From Odontesthes bonariensis (Eukaryota > Chordata > Actinopteri > Atheriniformes > Atherinopsidae), in the NCBI RefSeq assembly GCF_027942865.1, contig NC_134510.1, positions 15,962,743 through 16,026,742 of the forward strand: DNA of 64,000 nucleotides, read 5' to 3'. The notes beneath the pieces are model-generated. The model was not told where the DNA came from. It made no database searches and was given only the letters and a program-made list of their open reading frames with translations. This document shows positions 27,799-63,049 of the stretch, piece after piece. Position 1 is the first letter of the stretch; each line of letters begins with the position of its first letter. Position numbers and translations under genes: made by a program.

Positions 27799-29560
27799 AA
27801 TCAAATCAAATCAAATCAAATTTATTTGTATAGCACATTTCATGTACAAAACCATTCAAAGTGCTTTACATAAAATAAAAGCATTGCAGCAGGGAGTGGA
27901 AGAAGCATTAAAAATACATAAAAGAATATAAAGAGAAACAAATAAAATAATTTAAATGAATTTAAAAACAAGCAACAGTCCAGATAAATTCCATCCATCC
28001 ATTTTCTATACCGCTGAATCTGTCGGTCAGCTTGTGGGGGGGCTGGAGCCTATCCCAGCGGTCAATGGGTGAGAGGCAGGGTACACCCTGGACAGGCCGC
28101 CAGTCCATCACAGGGCCACACAGAGACAAACGAGACAAACAACCATACACACTCACACTCACTCCTAAGGACAATTTTAGAGACACCAATTAACCTAACA
28201 TGCATGTTTTTGGACAGTGGGAGGAAGCCAGAGTACCTGTAGAGAACCCACACATACACAGGGAGAACATGCAAACTCCACAAAGAAAGGCCCCAGCTGG
28301 GAGTTGAACCTGGAACCTTCTTGCTGTGAGGCAACGGTGCTAACCACCACACCACCGTGCAGCCGCTCCAGATAAATTAAAAATGAAAAAAATTAAAAGA
28401 TATCGTGCAGATAAATAAATGTTTTTAACCTGGATTTAAAAATGTCTCCATTAGGTGAAAGTTTAATCTGCACTGGCAGTTTGTTCCACTTGTTTGCAGC
28501 ATAACAGCTAAATGCTGCTTCTCCATGTTTAGTCTGGACTCTGGACTGGACCAGCTGACCTGAGTCCTTGGATCTAAGAGCTCTGCTGGGTTTATATTCT
28601 CTGAACATATCACAGATGTATTTTGGGCCTAAACCGTTCTGGGATTTGTAAACCATCAGCAGGCTTTTAAAATCTATTCTGTGACTGACTGGAAGCCAGT
28701 GTAAAGATTTTAAAACTGGTGTGATGTGTTCAGATTTCTTAGTCCGGGTTAAAACTCTAGCAGCAGCGTTCTGGATGAGCTGCAGATGTTTAATGCTCTT
28801 TTTGGGAAGTCCAGTTAAAAGAGCATTACAGTAATGGAGTCTACTGGAGATGAATGCATGGATGAGTTTCTCCTGGTCTTTTTGGGAGAGGAAACCTTTA
28901 ATTCTGTTGATGTTTCTGAGATGGTAAAAAGCTGCCTTGGTGCCAGCTTTGATATGGCTGCTGAAAGTCAGATCTGAGTCTATCAACACTCCGAGGGTAC
29001 GAACTTGGTCAGTGATTGTAAGGTCCCGAGTCTCAACATATTTACCAACGCTGACCCTCTTCTCTTTGCTACCAAACAGAATGATCTCAGTTTTGTCTTC
29101 ATTTAATTGTAGAAAATTCTCTCTCATCCAGGTGTTTACTTCCTCCAGACACTGACACAGTACGTCTGCTGGGCTGCAGTCGTCCGGTGACAGAGACACA
29201 TAAAGTTGTGTATCGTCTGCATAACTGTGATAATTGATGTTAAAGTTCTGCAATATCTGACCCAAAGGGAGCATATACAAGTTAAACAGAAGAGGTCCAA
29301 GAATTGACCCCTACGGGACTCCACAAGTCGTGGCCACTCGCTCAGATTCATAGCTGCCAATTGTAACAAAATAACTCCGGCCTTCTAAGTAGGACCTGAA
29401 CCAGTTAAGGACCGCTCCAGAAAGTCCAACCCAGTTTTCCAGCCTGTGCAACAGGATTCTGTGATCTACAGTATCAAACGCAGCGCTGAGATCCAACAGA
29501 ACCAGGACTGAAACATTACCAGAATCAGTAGTCAACCTGATGTAGTTTAACACTATACAA
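27799..29560 (-). mobile_element. L2/CR1-like LINE, 5'-truncated, with nested SINE
   Basis: On the minus strand this encodes the RT and C-terminal region of a non-LTR retrotransposon. The first part (about 29325-29560) has SVLVLLDLSAAFDTVDHRIL. A single in-frame TAG (29305-29307), where the family has the Q of GVPQGS, breaks the frame. It then runs open for 295 codons (28393-29280) through the YADD catalytic box, an NAAARVLTRT block and LHWLPVSHRIDFKSLLMVYK. The 3' UTR runs left to a (TTTGA)n tail at about 27799-27821, preceded by the tract TATTTGTATAGCACATTTCA seen on the plus strand. It lacks the endonuclease part. The 3' UTR is split by the SINE at 27991-28366. Confidence 0.85.
27991..28366 (-). 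mobile_element. full-length tRNA-derived SINE with 12-bp target-site duplication
   Basis: A 376-bp insertion lies between two copies of TCCAGATAAATT (27979-27990 and 28367-28378), so the target-site duplication is perfect over 12 bp. Read on the minus strand it opens GCGGCTGCACGG. It carries an A-box-like GTGGTGTGGTGGTTAGC and a B-box-like GGTTCAACTCC within the first 70 bp, which is a tRNA-like RNA polymerase III promoter. A 3' body follows, ending GGATAGGCTCCAGCCC and AATGGATGGATGG. A (GATG)n tail is what fish RTE/Rex3 LINEs carry, so RTE machinery may have mobilised it (inference). Confidence 0.85.
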
Positions 29561-42900: not shown

Positions 42901-45900
42901 TTCTGACATAAAGTTGATGGAACTTGAGGGAACTTCAAATGTCTCAGACAAAAATATCAACAGCCAATTAAAATTATAAAAACCTTCAGAATCTTTGCAG
43001 TACAAAGTATGGTGAATAATCTCACAGATTCAAGTAAAAATGGGGATTTAATATACTGTATAAGCATGAAGGAAACATTGCCATATGCAGCAATGCAACA
43101 ATGCAGCGTACTTTAACTTTGTTCTTTAACATGACATTTCAGACTGTTTCCATAATTGCAATGAAAGACGTTCATGGAACGTACATCATGCATGTTAAAA
43201 TTCCTCCTCGACCTCCTAGCTCAAAACATTTTAAATGATTTTCAAAATGTTCTAACCTATTTGGTGTGTGGGACAAGTTCTGCCACATACAGTTGCAGTA
43301 TATTTTATATTCTATATTTTATTATGTATCACCTGAAGGAGTGATATGTGAGATGTAACACTTGTGCTGATGGTGATGCAGTTCACTGGAGACAAGGCAT
43401 GCAGAATGGTTCCATAGAACAAAGACAAAAGGTTTTCATCAACTGTAGTGAAGTTACAATCTGTAATATCTTATCCCTGATAATGTCTGTGTGTAACATG
43501 GACAAAAGTGGCAGACAAATCTTAGTTTGTGACATTAAAATTTAAATAAAAGTATTTTAAATATGTTCGGTTGGACTCATGACACTCGGCATATGGCAGC
43601 TTTATGATACAGCATTTTGTCTTGAGGTCTCAGCATGTGTAGATACATTGGATGGTCCTCTCTTCCTTTTGGCCTTTTTAGTCAGCAAAACAAGATGAAA
43701 CCTTGCAGAAATAGGACACAGATACATTTTTATTTTTTTCTAAGTATGTCCATCCGTAAGGATGGAAATAAACTCTAAAAAATTGGAAAAAGAAAGGTCT
43801 CCAACACTTAACTGGTTTACAGTGGCTGGTCAAATGCCAGGATGTATGAATTTAGTTATTATTTGACTTTCATGTAGTCATTTTGACATTTGAGTTGACA
43901 TAATGTACCTGACATGAAACACTTCCTCCTGCTCCTGTCAACAGAGATCTCTGGTGTGAGTTCAGGGTGCCAGCAGGGTGGCTGCCTGACCTGCTCTGAC
44001 TATAATGGCTGTCTGTCCTGCAAGCCGCGATTCTTCATGCATTTGGAGAGGATCGGGATGAGGCAGATCGGGGTGTGCATGACTTCCTGTCCGTCAGGTT
44101 TTTACGGCACTCGTACCCCAGAGAGAAGCACCTGTACAAGTGAGTTAGAATGAGCAACCAACTGGACTCTTTTTGGTGGAATGATTACAGTGTATTGATA
44201 ACAACATTCATTACGCTGAACATATCCCAATTTGAACTGACTCAATTAGAAAATCAATGTAAGTGTGATATTGGTTCCCTTTGTCGTTTGTTGCTGTTTA
44301 AGAGGTTGGCAATAACGAGTCAATGTAATTTAAATTACAGTCTTGTTGCAAAGGCACACAGACAAGTATGTGTTTAACTTAAGTATGTGTTTAACTTGTG
44401 TTTAATTACATGTGGCATTAGTACACCAATGTCTCTCTGGCTTTGACTAAAAATGTTTCCCCCTCATAAACACTTTTTTTGCAAGCAAACTTTAACAAAC
44501 TATAATGCAGCATTATGGATTAATATACTCAAAAATCTTCCTCTTATTGGTTATCCCGATGAGTGTCTTTTCATTTGGCAACATTCAATTAAATGAAGCA
44601 CTGCTCTAGGTAGAAATACTGATCACATGCCAGCAAGAGAAATATCAACCTGCCTACAGTTTCTTGATATGTATTTGCAGCCAGACGTGCGTACACTGAC
44701 ACATATACTGAAACCCTGTATGCTCAATTCACAGAACGCACATTGTAACTTGGCCGGTTTAAATTAACGGTGGTGGTGTGTCTGTGTTTCTCTGTCAGAG
44801 TGTAGGTCGGAGTGCGACTCTTGCTTCAACAGGAACTTCTGCACGCGCTGTCGGGCAGGATTCTACCTTTCTGTGGGCAAGTGCCAGCAGAACTGCCCTG
44901 AGGGCATGAGCCCCAGCGACACACAGAAGGAATGTGTCCCCAGTGAGTGCTCTCATTTCAAATTACCCACGGATGGGTATAAAACATGGCTTTTAACTCC
45001 TTTGATTATTCCAGCACACAGCATGTTAAACATCAGAGACGTGTCTGTGTTTGCAGGGTGCCCTGCTGATTGTGAATCGTGTGCAAACAGCGAGACATGT
45101 ACGCAGTGCCGTCCGGGCTTTTACCAGCTGAGCGGGAGGTGCTACCACATCTGTCCAGATGAATATGAGCCCAATGACAAACTCATGGAGTGCACACCAC
45201 AAGGTCAGTCAAGTGTGAGTGTGTGCTGAGGTGCACGTTTTGGGCCCATCTTACAGAATGGCAGGAAGCTTGAAAGAAGGAGTTTAACCCCATTTTGAGG
45301 CTTCAGAAAACGTTTCCCATCCTTACCACTCCCTCTCCATGTTTTCCCTGTCAGTGCACTGCGAGGTGGGTGAGTGGAGCGAGTGGAGCTCCTGCTCTAA
45401 GCTCGGCAGAACCTGTGGCTTCAAACGGGGTCAGGAGACCCGCACAAGGCAGGTCCTGCAGTATCCAACCCCTTTTGGCAGACCCTGCCCTGAGATCTCT
45501 GAGATCAAAGAATGTCTGGTCAAGAAGAGGAAATGTCCAGGTAAAGAAAACATACTGTTGCAAAGTCGCTATGTTTCTGTGTCCAAAGGATGTGTCAGAT
45601 CCTGACTGAAGGCCCCTCTGACCTTGCATATGAACCCTAAGTGTAGAAAAAGTCCGTAGTAATTGCTGCTGACCCGTCCCGCTCTCAGCCGACATAGTAT
45701 TTGTGACACATGGCACGACTTCAGCTCTCTATGAATTCCAGACCATGCTGCTTCAGCTTGTACAACCAGAGCGAGACGGTCTTCCGCTCAGGACTATGAC
45801 TGTTTACTCAGAGGACTGTCATTGTGGCTGGAGTGAGGATAGTGCGTGGGGAACACACATGTGTGATGTTGCAATGGATATGTTGTGTGTTTTCCCACCA

Positions 45901-53292: not shown

Positions 53293-53995
53293 ATTATAAT
53301 GGGTTTGTAGCTGTGTCTGTTTATTCATTATGCAGCCTTCATCTGGTGCAAACTGTTTGAACACCTATAAAACCTTTTTATCAGGGCAAGTGCAAAGTGA
53401 ATTAAGCCATTAACTGTAGAGTCAAAGGTTGAAACTGTTGCGACGGCAGGAAATGAGACTAATCAACTCTTGTTTAACTGAATCTCTTAAGCTGCTTTGA
53501 CAACTGAGAAACCTAGCTCTGACTTATCAGCAGTATAGCACACACCCTCTTTTATTACTAATTTAATCAACGATTTGACTCTCTGCTCACTATATTAAGT
53601 GTGTACTTTAAATCTGACTTCCTTTTCAATTTGGAATCTGCAGTTCTTGATAACCTTTGTTGAGACAAGTCTCATTTCTATTTGAGTAAAAGGAACTATT
53701 AAGTATCACAGCATTCAAAACAAGAAATACATGTTGCCCAATTTTAAATGATTTCAAGTGAATCATTTTATCAAATCCATTTTAAAGTTGAGTTTTTTTT
53801 CCCTCTGTATGATCTATTCACTATTTTGGTGCATGTAAAGTAGAATAACTACATGTGCACGAAAGGACGAGCACATTCATCCAAGTTTTGATTAGCTCCC
53901 TGAATATGGGGGCTCTGCACATATGCCCCCCTTTCGGTATTCTAATAAAACTAATTATTTCGCTCAAGAAGAAACAGGGAACATTTTAAAGCTAG
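53293..53995. other. intergenic gap between convergent rspo3 and mdh2 3' ends
   Basis: About 0.7 kb without exons or recognisable repeats. I looked here for the poly(T) tract that a young minus-strand retrocopy would leave past its polyadenylation site and found only a short T-run near 53790. Confidence 0.5.
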
Positions 53996-53999
53996 ACTG

Positions 54000-54390
54000 T
54001 TTATTGAGAGAGTGAATATTTTGTTCATCAGTAACATCAACTGTATGTGCATCAGCAGGCAAGTTAGCATTTCCTCCTTTTTCACTCAGCAAAGAAATCT
54101 CCACAAACACAGACCATGAATGAAAATAGAAATTTGATTTTTGAAGTCCGACGTTTGCAAAAAAAACCATTTAAGTCACAGTAGAGTATGTCGACAATTC
54201 ATACATACAGTATTAAGCCATGTTTGAAAATATGGGTAATAGTAGAATGATGACACCACTACTAAATTTAAAAAAAAAAAAAAAAACAAGGAAACACTGA
54301 CAGATCTTAAGTTACCCTGATGCCTTTTAAGACAGAACAAATTATAAATTACAACTGCTGTTTGTCGTTGAAAAGTTGAATGGTTTCTGT
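54000..54390 (-). terminator. mdh2: mdh2 3' UTR with polyadenylation signal
   Basis: TTTATT at 54000-54005 is AATAAA on the minus strand, about 385 bp past the stop codon. An 18-bp A-run on the plus strand at about 54272-54289 lies within this 3' UTR as a T-run; its orientation is wrong for a retrocopy poly(A) tail. Confidence 0.55.
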
Positions 54391-55404
54391 TCACTTCATG
54401 TTAGCAGCAAAATCCTCGCCTTTCTTGATAGAACCCTTCAGCTCGCCGGCGGCATCGGCAACCAGCTTCTCCTCAAAGGCGGTCAGCTTGCCCAGCCCAA
54501 GGTTCTTCTCAATACCGTTCTTCCCCAGGAGGAGAGGCGTGGAGAAGTACTTGCACTCTGTCTCCTCAGACCTGACATAGGCGCACTCCACCACACCTTC
54601 CTTTCCATTCATGGCATCCAGGACGGAGAAGGTGAAGCGGGCACCGGCATAGGCCATGGACAGGGTAGCTGATCCTGCTCCTGCCTTAGCTTTAACCACT
54701 TCTGTGCCGGCATCCTGGATCCTGGCAGTCAGGGCAGACAGCTGGTCAGCAGGGAACTCAACTTTGGGTGTGCACTGGGAAATGAGGGGAATGATGGTCT
54801 TCCCAGCATGCCCACCAATGACTGGGACACTGACACGAGCAGGGTCAAGGCCTTTCAGCTCTGCCACAAAAGCGTTGGCTCTGACAATGTCCAAGGTTGT
54901 GACACCAAACACTTTGTTGGGGTTGTACACTCCGTGCTTCTTCATAACCTCTGATGTTATTGGGACGGTGGAGTTGACAGGGTTTGCGATGATGCAGATC
55001 ATAGCCTCAGGGCAGTTGCGGGCGCAGGCATCGGCCAAGGTGGCTACAATGGTAGCGTTGGTGTTGAACAGGTCGTCTCTGGTCATGCCGGGTTTCCTGG
55101 GAACACCAGCGGGAATAACCACGACGTCACAGCCCTGCAAAGCAGCATCAAGCTGGTCGGGGCCCATGTGGCCGGTCACCTGGGCTCTTGTCTCAATGTG
55201 GCTGAGATCTGCAGCAACCCCGGGTGTGTGGGCAATATCAAACAGGGAGAGTTGACTCACCAAGGGGCTATTCTTGAGCAGCAAGGATAGCGGCTGGCCT
55301 ATGCCGCCTGAAGCTCCAAGCACCGCCACCTTGGCGTTGTTCTGGGAGGAGGTGGACAGGCTCCGAACAAGAGCAAGGGTAGGTCTCACGGCACGGGAAA
55401 ACAT
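54391..55404 (-). CDS. mdh2: mitochondrial malate dehydrogenase, intronless
   Basis: A single uninterrupted 337-codon frame, the usual MDH2 length (human 338). It interconverts malate and oxaloacetate with NAD in the mitochondrial matrix (TCA cycle, malate-aspartate shuttle). An Arg/Ser-rich presequence (about 1-23) is followed by the Rossmann dinucleotide loop GASGGIGQ (30-37), active-site loop [11 protein letters not shown] (101-111, R103 and R109), NPVN (141-144), LDIVR with D172, and GGHAGKT with catalytic H199. All key residues are intact. Start context AAGATG is acceptable. Vertebrate MDH2 is a multi-exon gene (nine exons in human), so absence of introns points to retroposition. It sits between rspo3 and rnf146, which lack this neighbour in human. 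An acceptor-like CCCAAACAG ends at 55422 on the minus strand, so a small 5' UTR intron is possible. Whether this is the only mdh2 in the genome is unknown. Confidence 0.93.
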
Positions 55405-55620
55405 CTTCTGTCTGTTTCGGTCTGTTTGGGATTTAGAGAAAAAAAATAGAACTTATGAGCCCCTCTCCTCTGTGACACCAACGTCCTCTAGCCACGAGCG
55501 AACAGGAAGACTTCGGAACTGACGTGCGTAGAAAAAAAGGGTCATGTGGGTGGACGTCCCATTGCGTAAGCTCGTACTGTTACGTCGTCTCCTTTATCTC
55601 AGCTTCTCTTTCGAAGGAAA
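55405..55620. promoter_or_regulatory. putative shared (bidirectional) promoter of mdh2 and rnf146
   Basis: The mdh2 ATG (minus strand) and the presumed first exon of rnf146 (plus strand, ending 55722) are only about 200-300 bp apart and diverge. The interval is richer in CG dinucleotides than its surroundings. It holds CRE-like TGACGT (55520-55525) and TACGTC (55581-55586) and an ETS-like AGGAAG (55503-55508). No TATA box is obvious. Shared use is inference. Confidence 0.45.
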
Positions 55621-55722
55621 ACAAAGCCAGTTAACATTGGAAGTCGATATATTAACATTTGGGAATCTGTACCCTAACACAAGTTGCTACAGCAAACAAG
55701 AGTATTACAACCGAATTTAAAG
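55590..55722 (+). other. rnf146: rnf146 non-coding exon 1 (3' boundary supported)
   Basis: The right boundary is a donor, AAAG before GTACGG, at 55722/55723. The left boundary is a guess within the CG-rich promoter region. Mammalian RNF146 also has non-coding 5' exons upstream of a single coding exon. Confidence 0.4.
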
Positions 55723-56420
55723 GTACGGTAAATATGCAGTTGTTGTACTGTCTGTGCCGCGAGAAAATATTTTTATCCTGTTTATGTCGCTCTGCTAAAA
55801 TAAGCTAGCGCCCTCAAATGAACTCCGTCTATTTACTGGAGCCATTGTGCTATACACTTAGCCCAGTTAGCTTTAGCCTAATACAACAGGTTTCAATATT
55901 AACGATGATTTTATTTATGTAGAAGTGACTCAGTCATTTCTGTTTACACTTACGATGGTAACAGTAAATACCTTGCGTTTACCTAGCTGTTACGTAGTTA
56001 ATGTTAGCAAACAAGTTTTCTTACACATTATTAACACTTATGTATATGTCTTTGGGTGCTACTGATATTAATTTAGTAACAGTTTCAGTGTCTGTCATAA
56101 GCCCCGTCATAAGTATTACAGGGTTAAGCTAGCACAGCCTGACACAGTTCACTGATTGTAGTCTTTTAACAGAGCCTTTCTTTGTTCTACACGCAGCAGT
56201 CCTATACATTTGACCCATAACTAAGGGAATTAAAGTTAAGTTTTAACCTGATATATTTTAAGGACAGACTTTTAAAATGCATCACTTAACATTTTAAAAT
56301 GTTTCACAAAGGGCATGTTTTCAGAAATGGTTTGTGTAAGAAGTAGCTTGATATTTTACATCACGATTCGATTTAATTCCTGGCTGGTAAATACATTTTC
56401 TTGTCTTTTCCTTTTGACAG

Positions 56421-56482
56421 TGGAAGATTTAAAGGTCCATTGAAAGCTCTCCTAATGATTCATCTGCATTAAAGAGATTTGA
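56421..56482 (+). other. rnf146: rnf146 non-coding exon 2
   Basis: It is preceded by a pyrimidine-rich tract ending TTTTGACAG (acceptor at 56420) and followed by GTAAGT (56483). The 62-bp block contains one ATG (56456-56458), which opens only a short frame. It would join to the coding-exon acceptor TTTTTCATTCAG at 56882. Confidence 0.45.
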
Positions 56483-56894
56483 GTAAGTAAGAAACTGCAT
56501 GCCCATCTGCCTTGTGTGAGAGTAATACCTATAACAGTGTTCAACATTTGTGTTAACTTTAATCATAAACCTGTTTGCCAATTAGTGACAAAAAGTACCC
56601 AGAGTAATCACTACAGCAGAAATGCTGTGTCATTTATTTAAAATCATGTGTGTTGTTCTTAGAAATAACCACAAAGAGCATCATAGTTGCAATCAGATGC
56701 ACTAATATATATCACCAATCTAAAATTCCGAACATTAACAATGAGCGGAAAAAAATATTTGGAGAACAATTTAGTGTCCGGAAAGATTTCATGATTGTGA
56801 GAGCCTAATCCCTGACACGCTAAAAGGTAAAAAGCATGTCTGTAATAACCGTCTCAAAACAATTGTCCCCTTTTTCATTCAGCACTTCATAAGG

Positions 56895-58037
56895 ATGGCT
56901 AGTTGTGGAGAGGTCGACCACTCTGTTGGCTCGCTTCCATCCAGTAAGAAAGGCGGCAGCAGTGGTGGTGGAAGTGGGAACAGCGCAGAATCCTCATGCT
57001 CTGGCTCCAGCAGCTCATCCCCGGCCCTTCCTGTGCCAGAGTGTGCCATCTGTCTACAGAGCTGTGTGCACCCAGTACAACTGCCATGCCATCATGTCTT
57101 CTGTTTCCTGTGCGTGAAGGGGGCATCCTGGCAGAGCAAACGCTGTGCTCTCTGCAGACAGGAAGTGCCGGATGACTTCCTGGAAAGGCCTACACTTCTC
57201 TCTCCCGAGGAGCTGAAAGCCTCGGCGGGAGGTCGGGGTGGGGCAACGAGCGATCATGCCTGGTACTATGAGGGTCGTAATGGCTGGTGGCAATATGATG
57301 AGCGAACCAGCCGGGAGCTGGAGGACGCTTTCTCTAAGGGCAAGAAGACGGCTGAAATGCTTATTGCTGGCTTTTTGTATGTAGCTGACTTGGAGAACAT
57401 GGTGCAGTATCGGCGCAATGAGCATGGTCGTAGGCGTAAAATGAAGAGGGACGTTTTGAATATTCCCAAGAAGGGAGTGGCTGGACTGCGGCTGGACACT
57501 GAAGTGGGTAGTGGGGCCCTGGGAGCAACAAGTCGAGAAAACTCTGCTGATGGGGCCGATACCACAATAGCAAGTAATCAGCCACAGGTTACAGGTGTCC
57601 CCTCTACTGTTACAGCCACCACAGCTACTGCCCGGCCTTCCACTTCCCTCGGGGGTCAGCCTGACTCCAGCACTAGCCCCTCTCTGGTGGATGCTCTCTC
57701 CCTGCTGCAAATCAGCCCCAGGCCCGGGCTTTCTCCTGAGCGGTCTGAGCCCGGGGAAGGAGAGGAAGAAGATGAGGAGGAGACGTCACCTTCAAGGTCG
57801 TCTGACCCTCACACCTCTGTGGACGAGTCTGGCTCTGGAGACTGGAGCGATGATGAGGAAGAGGAGGGGGGAGATGGAGAGCGTGTGGAGCCTTGGGAGG
57901 AGCGACCACGGAGACGAAGACTGATACCAGAGGACAGAGCACCTCCTCTCGCAGAGTCAGGCTCTCCCCCTACCTCATCCAGTAGCACTGGAAGGTCCAG
58001 AATGCCTGATGGCCAGTGTACAGTAACTGAAGTGTGA
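56895..58037 (+). CDS. rnf146: E3 ubiquitin ligase RNF146 (Iduna)
   Basis: 380 codons in one exon, as in other vertebrates. After a Ser/Gly-rich leader it has a C3HC4 RING finger (C50, C53, C65, H67, C70, C73, C84, C87) and a WWE domain (about 118-192, including W123, Y125, W131, W132 and Y134) that binds iso-ADP-ribose units of poly(ADP-ribose). The rest is acidic and Ser-rich (about 280-350) and ends in CTVTEV. RNF146 ubiquitinates proteins PARylated by tankyrase, notably axin, and so promotes Wnt signalling; it also acts in DNA-damage responses. The start at 56895 lies 12 bp after a splice acceptor and gives a full-length protein. A basic stretch RRRKMKRD lies at about 179-186. Two non-coding upstream exons are likely. 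Confidence 0.96.
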
Positions 58038-60886: not shown

Positions 60887-63049
60887 TCATTTGTGTTTGG
60901 GCTTGCTGGCCAGGGCCTGCAGGTTTGCTGCCCCCCCCCACACCGTCCCAAATACTTCCTTCTCTGTCCTCAGAGCCTCTGACAGAGGGAGCTCTCTTCC
61001 CGACTGCACTACTTTCTTCACAGCCTGGATCACTGGGGCAGGTCCTTTGGTATAGCGACTCAGCCAGTTTTCAGCCTGCTGCAGGGGAGTGCCTGCATCT
61101 TTAGCTTCCTGGTCGGACTCCAGGACTCCATCGGCCAGTCCAATGTGCAGGCCGAGTTCAGAGTCCACTTTCACAGCACCACCCAGCAGCTTCAGCGCAT
61201 TCTGGCTTCCAACAATGCGGACAAGTCGTGCAGCGCCCCCCCAGCCTGGAACCAGACCCATGTGTTTATGGACGAACTGGATCACGCTGCCTGAAGCCAT
61301 TAGCCTTTGAGAAAGGGATAGCAGTCGCATGCAAGATTATGAGCAAGATCAAATATTCCAACGTATGAAAAGGTCTCCATGTGTTTATTGACTCGTGTGA
61401 AAACATTACCTGAAATCACAGGCAGTAGTGAGCTCTGCGCCTCCTCCCAGTGCTTTCCCTTCCACCAGGGCAACAGAGATAAGCGGCAGCCTGCACTGAG
61501 AGAACCATTCCGTCAGCGTACTGCGGCGCACATTATCTAACAATATAACACCTGAACTCTTAAACTCATACAGGCAACAGCTGTTTCGGTAGTTTGCTAA
61601 AACACTTAGCAGAGAGGAAGAGGGGACAGAGGAAATCGAGAGCCCTCACCTGAGCAGCCTTGTAAGAGCACTCTGCATGAACATACACATTTTCATCCCG
61701 TCCTATAAGGCGAGAGAAGGCTCATTTAGACATCTCACGTAAGCCCACACAAAGCAGCCGTTGAGGCAGGCAGAAATATACAGGTGAACTACTCAGCCGT
61801 CATAAATATGAATGAGGCCTTTGTTATTGAGTAGATAACAAGTGATACGCTACAGAATATCTATGCTCTGCTACCTGTGGGTTAGATATTGCTCGGACAG
61901 CGTTCAGGTCAGATCCAGAGCAGAAGGTTTCAGCAGCACCCTGAATAATAAGGCCTTTGCCGTCTGTCCACTCCTCCAGCTGGGTGACCCTCTCCTCCAG
62001 ATCCACCATCATGCTGCCTGGCAGGAAGAGAACAATCTCATCTATGTTTGTTTACATTTGAATATGTGCAACTGGGGGTTTGTCTCTAAAATAGCACATT
62101 TGCACCAGTCAGTCTGATGCTTTACTGCATAACCATACCAGAGAAAGCGTTCATGCGAGATGGGTTGTTGATGGTCAACACAGCTATGCCAGAGTCCTGT
62201 TTCAGTAGATCGATGGAACCTCCAGGAAAGACCTGCAGCTTCTCTCTGATCTCCTCCTGGTTGAAGCCATGGATGGCGGAGTACACACAGCCACTGCTCC
62301 GCCTCTGCAACACCCTGGAGGGACACCATTTGTCTTCAAACCGTTCTTCCTTACACGATCAGACCACGAGATTCAAAGCTAAATGGCATCATTACAGACG
62401 AACGCGCACGTAGCTGCAATCAAGATGATGCAAAACTAGTGACTATGTCGAGGTTAAAATGTCAAAGTTATGAAGCAATAGTTATAAAAAGAACAACAAA
62501 ACACTGAGAGCAGCACTCATCAATAAGCAAAACCAAATCCCTCTCAAAATCTTTACTGGGATTTAAAGAATGTAGTGGCAGCTGACACAGTAAAGAGGAT
62601 TAGTGAGCCACATTCTCTAGATATCAAAAAACTAATATTAGTACCACTTAACATGTTGTTCTCAAGTCTCAAAAATGTGCCTCGTGACTCTATTCACCAG
62701 ACGAGAAAGTCTTGAATATGTGCAACTGGGGGTTTGTCTCTAAAATAGCACATTTGCACCAGTCAGTCTGATGCTTTACTGCATAACCATACCAGAGAAA
62801 GCGTTCATGCGAGATGGGTTGTTGATGGTCAACACAGCTATGCCAGAGTCCAAATAAAACTGATTGCAGCCGTATGTGTGGTTGCAATCTGAAGAGATGT
62901 ATGCATTAAAGCCTAATGGATTGTATGCATGCATTCATTTACTTGTTGCCTTTGTGGTGATGAACAGTGAATAGACTCCATTACCTGGCCCAGGCTCCAC
63001 AGCAGCTGCTGCCCCTCAGGAGCTGTTGCCTCAGAGCACAGAGGGTCAT
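60887..63049 (-). CDS. echdc1: ethylmalonyl-CoA decarboxylase (ECHDC1), six coding exons
   Basis: Minus-strand coding exons, 5' to 3': 63049-62985, 62314-62139, 62017-61875, 61702-61650, 61490-61410, 61304-60887. All junctions are GT-AG and the frames join to 311 codons (human about 307). This is a crotonase-fold enzyme that decarboxylates ethylmalonyl-CoA (and methylmalonyl-CoA), clearing side products of acyl-CoA carboxylases in the cytosol. Visible blocks: FPGGSIDL; NNPSRMNAFSG; the oxyanion-hole region with SGSDLNAV (114-121); EGKALGGGAELTTACDFR (156-173); VHKHMGLVPGWGGAARL; and the C-terminal GTVWGGAANLQALA. The start is the ATG just after acceptor TTTGCAG at 63051; an upstream non-coding exon is implied but not located. 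It converges on rnf146. A partial repeat of exon 62314-62139 lies in the first coding intron. Confidence 0.93.
62058..62197. repeat. 140-bp direct repeat, copy 1 (contains the 3' part of an echdc1 exon)
   Basis: Identical base for base by eye to 62712-62851. It covers the last 59 bp of the genuine exon (62139-62197), its splice donor (62133-62138) and about 80 bp of the following intron. The flanks differ immediately outside on both sides. Confidence 0.95.
62712..62851 (-). pseudogene. 140-bp direct repeat, copy 2: partial echdc1 exon in intron
   Basis: A perfect copy of 62058-62197, displaced by 654 bp. On the minus strand it lies between the first and second coding exons. It has the splice donor but no acceptor, because the exon's 5' part is missing: upstream sequence is AT-rich and unlike the genuine exon. 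It is probably not spliced in. It is either a very recent duplication or an assembly join of two haplotypes. Confidence 0.85.

Follow-up and report, generated by a model that had tools for sequence, protein, structure and literature searches.

The stretch of Odontesthes bonariensis DNA analysed here (the window, 64,000 nucleotides) carries rspo3 (plus strand), mdh2 (minus), rnf146 (plus) and echdc1 (minus), in that order. Human RSPO3, RNF146 and ECHDC1 presumably lie in the same order, without MDH2 among them. The features are as follows.

44780–45226, plus strand: rspo3 frame with two furin-like repeats (FU2, FU3), matched by PF15913 in two stretches.
54000–54005, minus strand: AATAAA polyadenylation signal, by consensus match alone.
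54391–55404, minus strand: mdh2 coding sequence, a single exon of 337 amino acids with a presequence-like N-terminus (open reading frame, profiles and human MDH2 match).
55405–56000, no strand assigned: CpG-undepleted stretch reaching from the mdh2 start towards rnf146, a candidate bidirectional promoter (base composition).
56895–58037, plus strand: rnf146 coding sequence in a single open frame, oriented away from mdh2 (WWE domain at 64.0 bits, RING).
About 60890–62358, minus strand: echdc1-like exons (coding-score scan, named by eye).

According to the list of open reading frames, the mdh2 frame runs on the minus strand from an ATG at 55404 to a TGA ending at 54391, and its translation comprises 337 codons with no internal stop. 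An earlier note on this DNA had described an intact intronless mdh2 of this length at 54391–55404; its coordinates were correct, and the strand was absent from it. The product matches human MDH2 (2dfd, 4wle) at 604 bits and aligns with 2dfd across query residues 17–337 free of gaps, and the open frame together with this ungapped match gives a coding structure without introns. Judged by sequence, the 337-codon frame is no chance frame, since 266 of 319 residues (83%) are identical to the human MDH2 chain. Profile scans place the product within the TIGR01772 family (the MDH_euk_gproteo equivalog; 473.8 bits, the cut-off being 273.05) and find both LDH/MDH domains, PF00056 and PF02866. Its N-terminus is rich in Arg and Ser and appears presequence-like. 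Five residues which we take to be the catalytic and substrate residues of MDH2 (R103, R109, D172, R175 and H199) are all kept, R175 being an addition to those already named in the earlier note. The predicted protein is mitochondrial malate dehydrogenase, MDH2.

On the sense strand, the AATAAA at 54005–54000 starts 385 bases beyond the mdh2 stop, at the distance noted previously. The TSP1-like and basic C-terminal exons of rspo3 were recognised by eye in the coding-score scan, and the rspo3 frame at 44780–45226 (plus) continues past FU2 into the further furin-like repeat FU3. A third FU repeat of rspo3 has been described in ray-finned fishes and not in tetrapods in the account given in PMC6073468, so its occurrence here lends independent support to a ray-finned host. 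The window also holds a LINE-like remnant, a 295-aa frame (28393–29280, minus strand) in which PF00078 recognises part of a reverse transcriptase (34.2 bits).

Upstream of mdh2, three successive bins of 200 bases (55401–56000) show observed-to-expected CpG ratios of 1.06, 1.02 and 0.86; the remaining 17 of the 20 bins of 53401–57400 stay at 0.00–0.79. The GC content of the same three bins is 0.47, 0.37 and 0.38, such that the stretch is AT-rich and no classical CpG island. Because mdh2 and rnf146 stand back to back, a shared divergent promoter is the simplest reading, and the two genes probably share such a region. In the 1.5 kb preceding the mdh2 ATG, a position-weight scan for splice sites using assumed frequencies picked out ten acceptors above the window's 90th percentile and two donors above its 93rd, all with modest scores; mdh2 may have an intron in its 5' UTR.

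Vertebrate MDH2 is presumably a multi-exon gene by ancestry, and the earlier note had proposed a search of the same genome for an intron-bearing copy. We searched the Odontesthes bonariensis assembly (945,434,557 bases in 187 contigs). A protein search of the whole 945.4-Mb genome with the window MDH2, in which just the best candidates are scored, returned the window locus alone at E ≤ 0.001 and, with three candidates scored, still the window locus alone at E ≤ 10; a DNA search of the genome with the mdh2 coding sequence likewise returned this locus alone. TIGR01772 gave six matches across the genome (E ≤ 10), one of which, the window locus at 473.7 bits, passed the cut-off, the other five scoring 19.3–24.2 bits. 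Read by eye, these five weak loci are three LDH genes (two on contig C12, one on C13) and two MDH1 genes (C4 and C2), with their exons in separate frames. PF02866 gave ten matches (E ≤ 1). The window mdh2 was one of them, unbroken over positions 1–173 of 174; C4 and C2 each contributed two pieces, the pair of C12 loci three and C13 one, and the last match, on C16, stayed below the cut-off and contained three stops. With the two profiles combined, all five of the LDH/MDH1 genes fall into at least two separate pieces, and none of the five is of the mitochondrial type. No multi-exon mdh2 was found in this assembly by the protein, DNA, TIGR01772 or PF02866 searches.

Four sets of multi-exon genes served as controls. 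Citrate synthase was found in four pieces at one locus, POR in five pieces on contig C14, TMEM120 exon by exon at three loci (weak coiled-coil-like matches elsewhere were disregarded), and the 14-3-3 genes mostly exon by exon. Since these controls were recovered piecewise, they indicate that an intron-bearing mdh2, if present in the assembly, should have been detected; its exons should score far above 19–24 bits, given that single exons of LDH and MDH1, which are much further removed from the profile, were detected at that level. The genome thus has one detectable gene for a mitochondrial-type malate dehydrogenase, which is intronless and lies between rspo3 and rnf146.

The neighbourhood in which an ancestral mdh2 might be expected probably lies elsewhere. 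We take human MDH2 to be located near POR, TMEM120A, STYXL1, HSPB1 and YWHAG. In the fish, FAD_binding_1 pieces at about C14:22055010–22059300 (profile search) carry POR motifs by eye, and a TMEM120 gene lies at C14:22069934–22072531, which places the two together at C14:22055010–22072531, both on the minus strand; C7, C25 and C27 also carry FAD_binding_1 loci. Other TMEM120 genes occur at C21:29.13 Mb and at a locus on C27. Of the 14-3-3 loci, those at C14:12.18 Mb and at C21:15.93 Mb each have an almost full-length exon, and we take both to be YWHAG-like. This distribution suggests that C14 and C21 correspond, as duplicates, to the human MDH2 region and that the window's contig, C6, does not. 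The pairing of TMEM120 and YWHAG-like genes on C14 and C21 fits a whole-genome duplication. No mdh2 was found by tblastn near POR–TMEM120 in the 70 kb read on C14 (C14:22035001–22105000), and over 200 kb round the three TMEM120 loci (70 kb on C14, 70 kb on C27, 60 kb on C21) nothing convincing emerged as an mdh2 relic. The best matches, at E = 0.063 on C14 (31.7% identity over 63 aa), 1.6 on C27 and 3.3 on C21, were taken as chance.

We are confident that this mdh2 is a case of retrogene replacement, in which an orphan retrogene has taken the place of its parent. The earlier note had read the gene as a retroposed copy and speculated that it might have replaced the parental gene; the intronless frame, the positive controls and the failure to find an intron-bearing mdh2 in the assembly favour both parts of that reading. 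The parent might instead persist, absent from the assembly or overlooked in our searches, and the window gene would then be an extra functional retrogene. The scoring of best candidates alone in the protein search leaves some room for this, as does the chance that an assembly gap hides the parent, but an assembly of just 187 contigs for 945 Mb argues against a missing gene, and the exon-by-exon recovery of the multi-exon controls, together with the detection of distant LDH/MDH1 single exons at 19–24 bits, argues against a missed one. We regard this alternative as very unlikely.

Direct traces of the insertion were sought in the window. No poly(A) remnant was found in the flanks of mdh2, and the six families of short direct repeats round the gene are imperfect, none bracketing the gene or its transcript as a target-site duplication would. 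Two A-runs were considered and rejected as remnants of a tail: that at 54270–54286 on the plus strand falls within the presumed 3' UTR and reads as T in the sense direction, where a retrocopy tail would read as A, and the eight-A run on the sense strand at 53800–53793 lies about 200 bases beyond the AATAAA, too far for a tail. The insertion is thus one without a direct signature, in agreement with the earlier note, which had found no poly(T) trace or target duplication. Such marks of retroposition fade with age, and they are supporting rather than defining. The same note had concluded that the copy is old, a view that rests on the missing scars and the missing parent.

The missing scars also bear on a second alternative, in which mdh2 reached this site as DNA, or had always occupied it, and recombination with its own cDNA stripped out every intron in situ. 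Complete loss by way of a cDNA would yield the same coding structure and leave no retroposition scar. It would, however, need a separate relocation, as human RSPO3–RNF146–ECHDC1 are not known to include MDH2, while a single retroposition accounts at once for the new location and the absence of every intron; we consider in-place loss very unlikely. A bacterial source, whether contamination or the horizontal acquisition of a naturally intronless mdh, we reject, even though gamma-proteobacterial mdh also belongs to the TIGR01772 family, as the protein is nearer to human (266 of 319 residues identical) than to E. coli (183 of 310), has a presequence-like N-terminus, and is encoded in a vertebrate neighbourhood on a contig that is 38 Mb or longer.

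Relative-rate tests on the proteins set the fish against human or pig and took plant or E. coli MDH as outgroup. Changes confined to the fish and changes confined to the mammal numbered 8:10, 9:10, 9:10 and 9:9 in the four comparisons (p 0.8–1.0), each of which involves 18–19 changes and spans the whole lineage since the fish–mammal split, before and after the insertion. At the 136 positions where human, pig, plant and E. coli all agree, the fish departs twice (Y to F, A to S); at the 172 other, variable positions it departs from human 47 times (Fisher p 2.4e-11). In a simple simulation of neutral change, the frame was still open in 42 of 400 runs at 0.1 changes per site and in 0 of 400 at 0.3. 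On these sequence comparisons, the MDH2 protein lineage is strongly constrained and evolves at the mammalian rate, an indication of purifying selection that applies to the whole lineage rather than to the time after insertion alone. The mammalian-like rate also speaks for the earlier view of the gene as functional and under selection.

MDH2 converts malate and NAD+ to oxaloacetate and NADH, and acts in the TCA cycle and the malate–aspartate shuttle. Under retrogene replacement, a spliced mdh2 mRNA would have been reverse-transcribed and inserted upstream of rnf146 in the opposite orientation, where the rnf146 promoter region, acting in its opposite direction, could have driven transcription of the copy. 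With a complete coding sequence and presequence, the copy would have supplied the same matrix enzyme; the intron-bearing parent would then have become redundant and been lost. Whether the replacement is ancient and common to a large group of ray-finned fishes, with the rnf146 promoter shared, is to our minds evenly balanced.

Retrogene replacement has been described in other systems. In the account given in PMC5803294, amphioxus SYCP1 is a replacement with a single coding exon in a new place, its multi-exon parent having been lost, and a divergent promoter shared with CHIC has been proposed, with no CpG island found. The fish mdh2 resembles it in being a single-exon copy with no parent found, divergent from its neighbour and with a promoter that the two may have in common. 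The two cases differ in function, since mdh2 encodes a central TCA-cycle enzyme and SYCP1 acts in meiosis; SYCP1 has also gained a multi-exon 5' UTR de novo. The 'orphan' retrogenes of human, e.g. CHMP1B, of which the review PMC5408686 gives 25 cases, likewise are retrocopies that functionally replace a lost progenitor, in another lineage and in other genes. Closer to the host, intronless rhodopsin and Opn4m2 of teleosts are ray-finned retrogenes kept at conserved synteny, as described in PMC10339062; the intron-bearing parent persists in those cases, whereas no mdh2 parent was found. The earlier note had likened mdh2 to the intronless rho of ray-finned fishes, and the likeness is a loose one, since teleosts, by the same account, retain intron-bearing rhodopsin for the pineal, its loss being described in Acipenseriformes (PMC10339062).

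Among the open-licence PMC matches listed (titles, abstract starts and term counts), there was no report of an intronless MDH2 in fish, and neither 'mdh' nor 'malate' occurs in the main text of PMC8207432 or PMC4641402. Retrogene replacement is a known phenomenon of which the mdh2 case may be unreported, though public fish annotations may already show a single-exon mdh2.

The gene for a single-copy housekeeping enzyme has apparently been changed wholly, in its place, its introns and probably its promoter, with no shift visible in the rate of its protein, and mdh2 offers a natural test of the need for the introns and for the original promoter. The insertion is also a rare landmark which could mark fish relationships. 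In practice, annotators and primer designers should expect a single-exon mdh2 in Odontesthes bonariensis, where, because the gene has one exon, intron-spanning primers cannot separate genomic DNA from cDNA. If the replacement is indeed ancient and widely shared, a core TCA-cycle enzyme of a major vertebrate group would long have been made from a retrogene, the coding part of which would lie outside splicing control and be tied to rnf146 by a common promoter.
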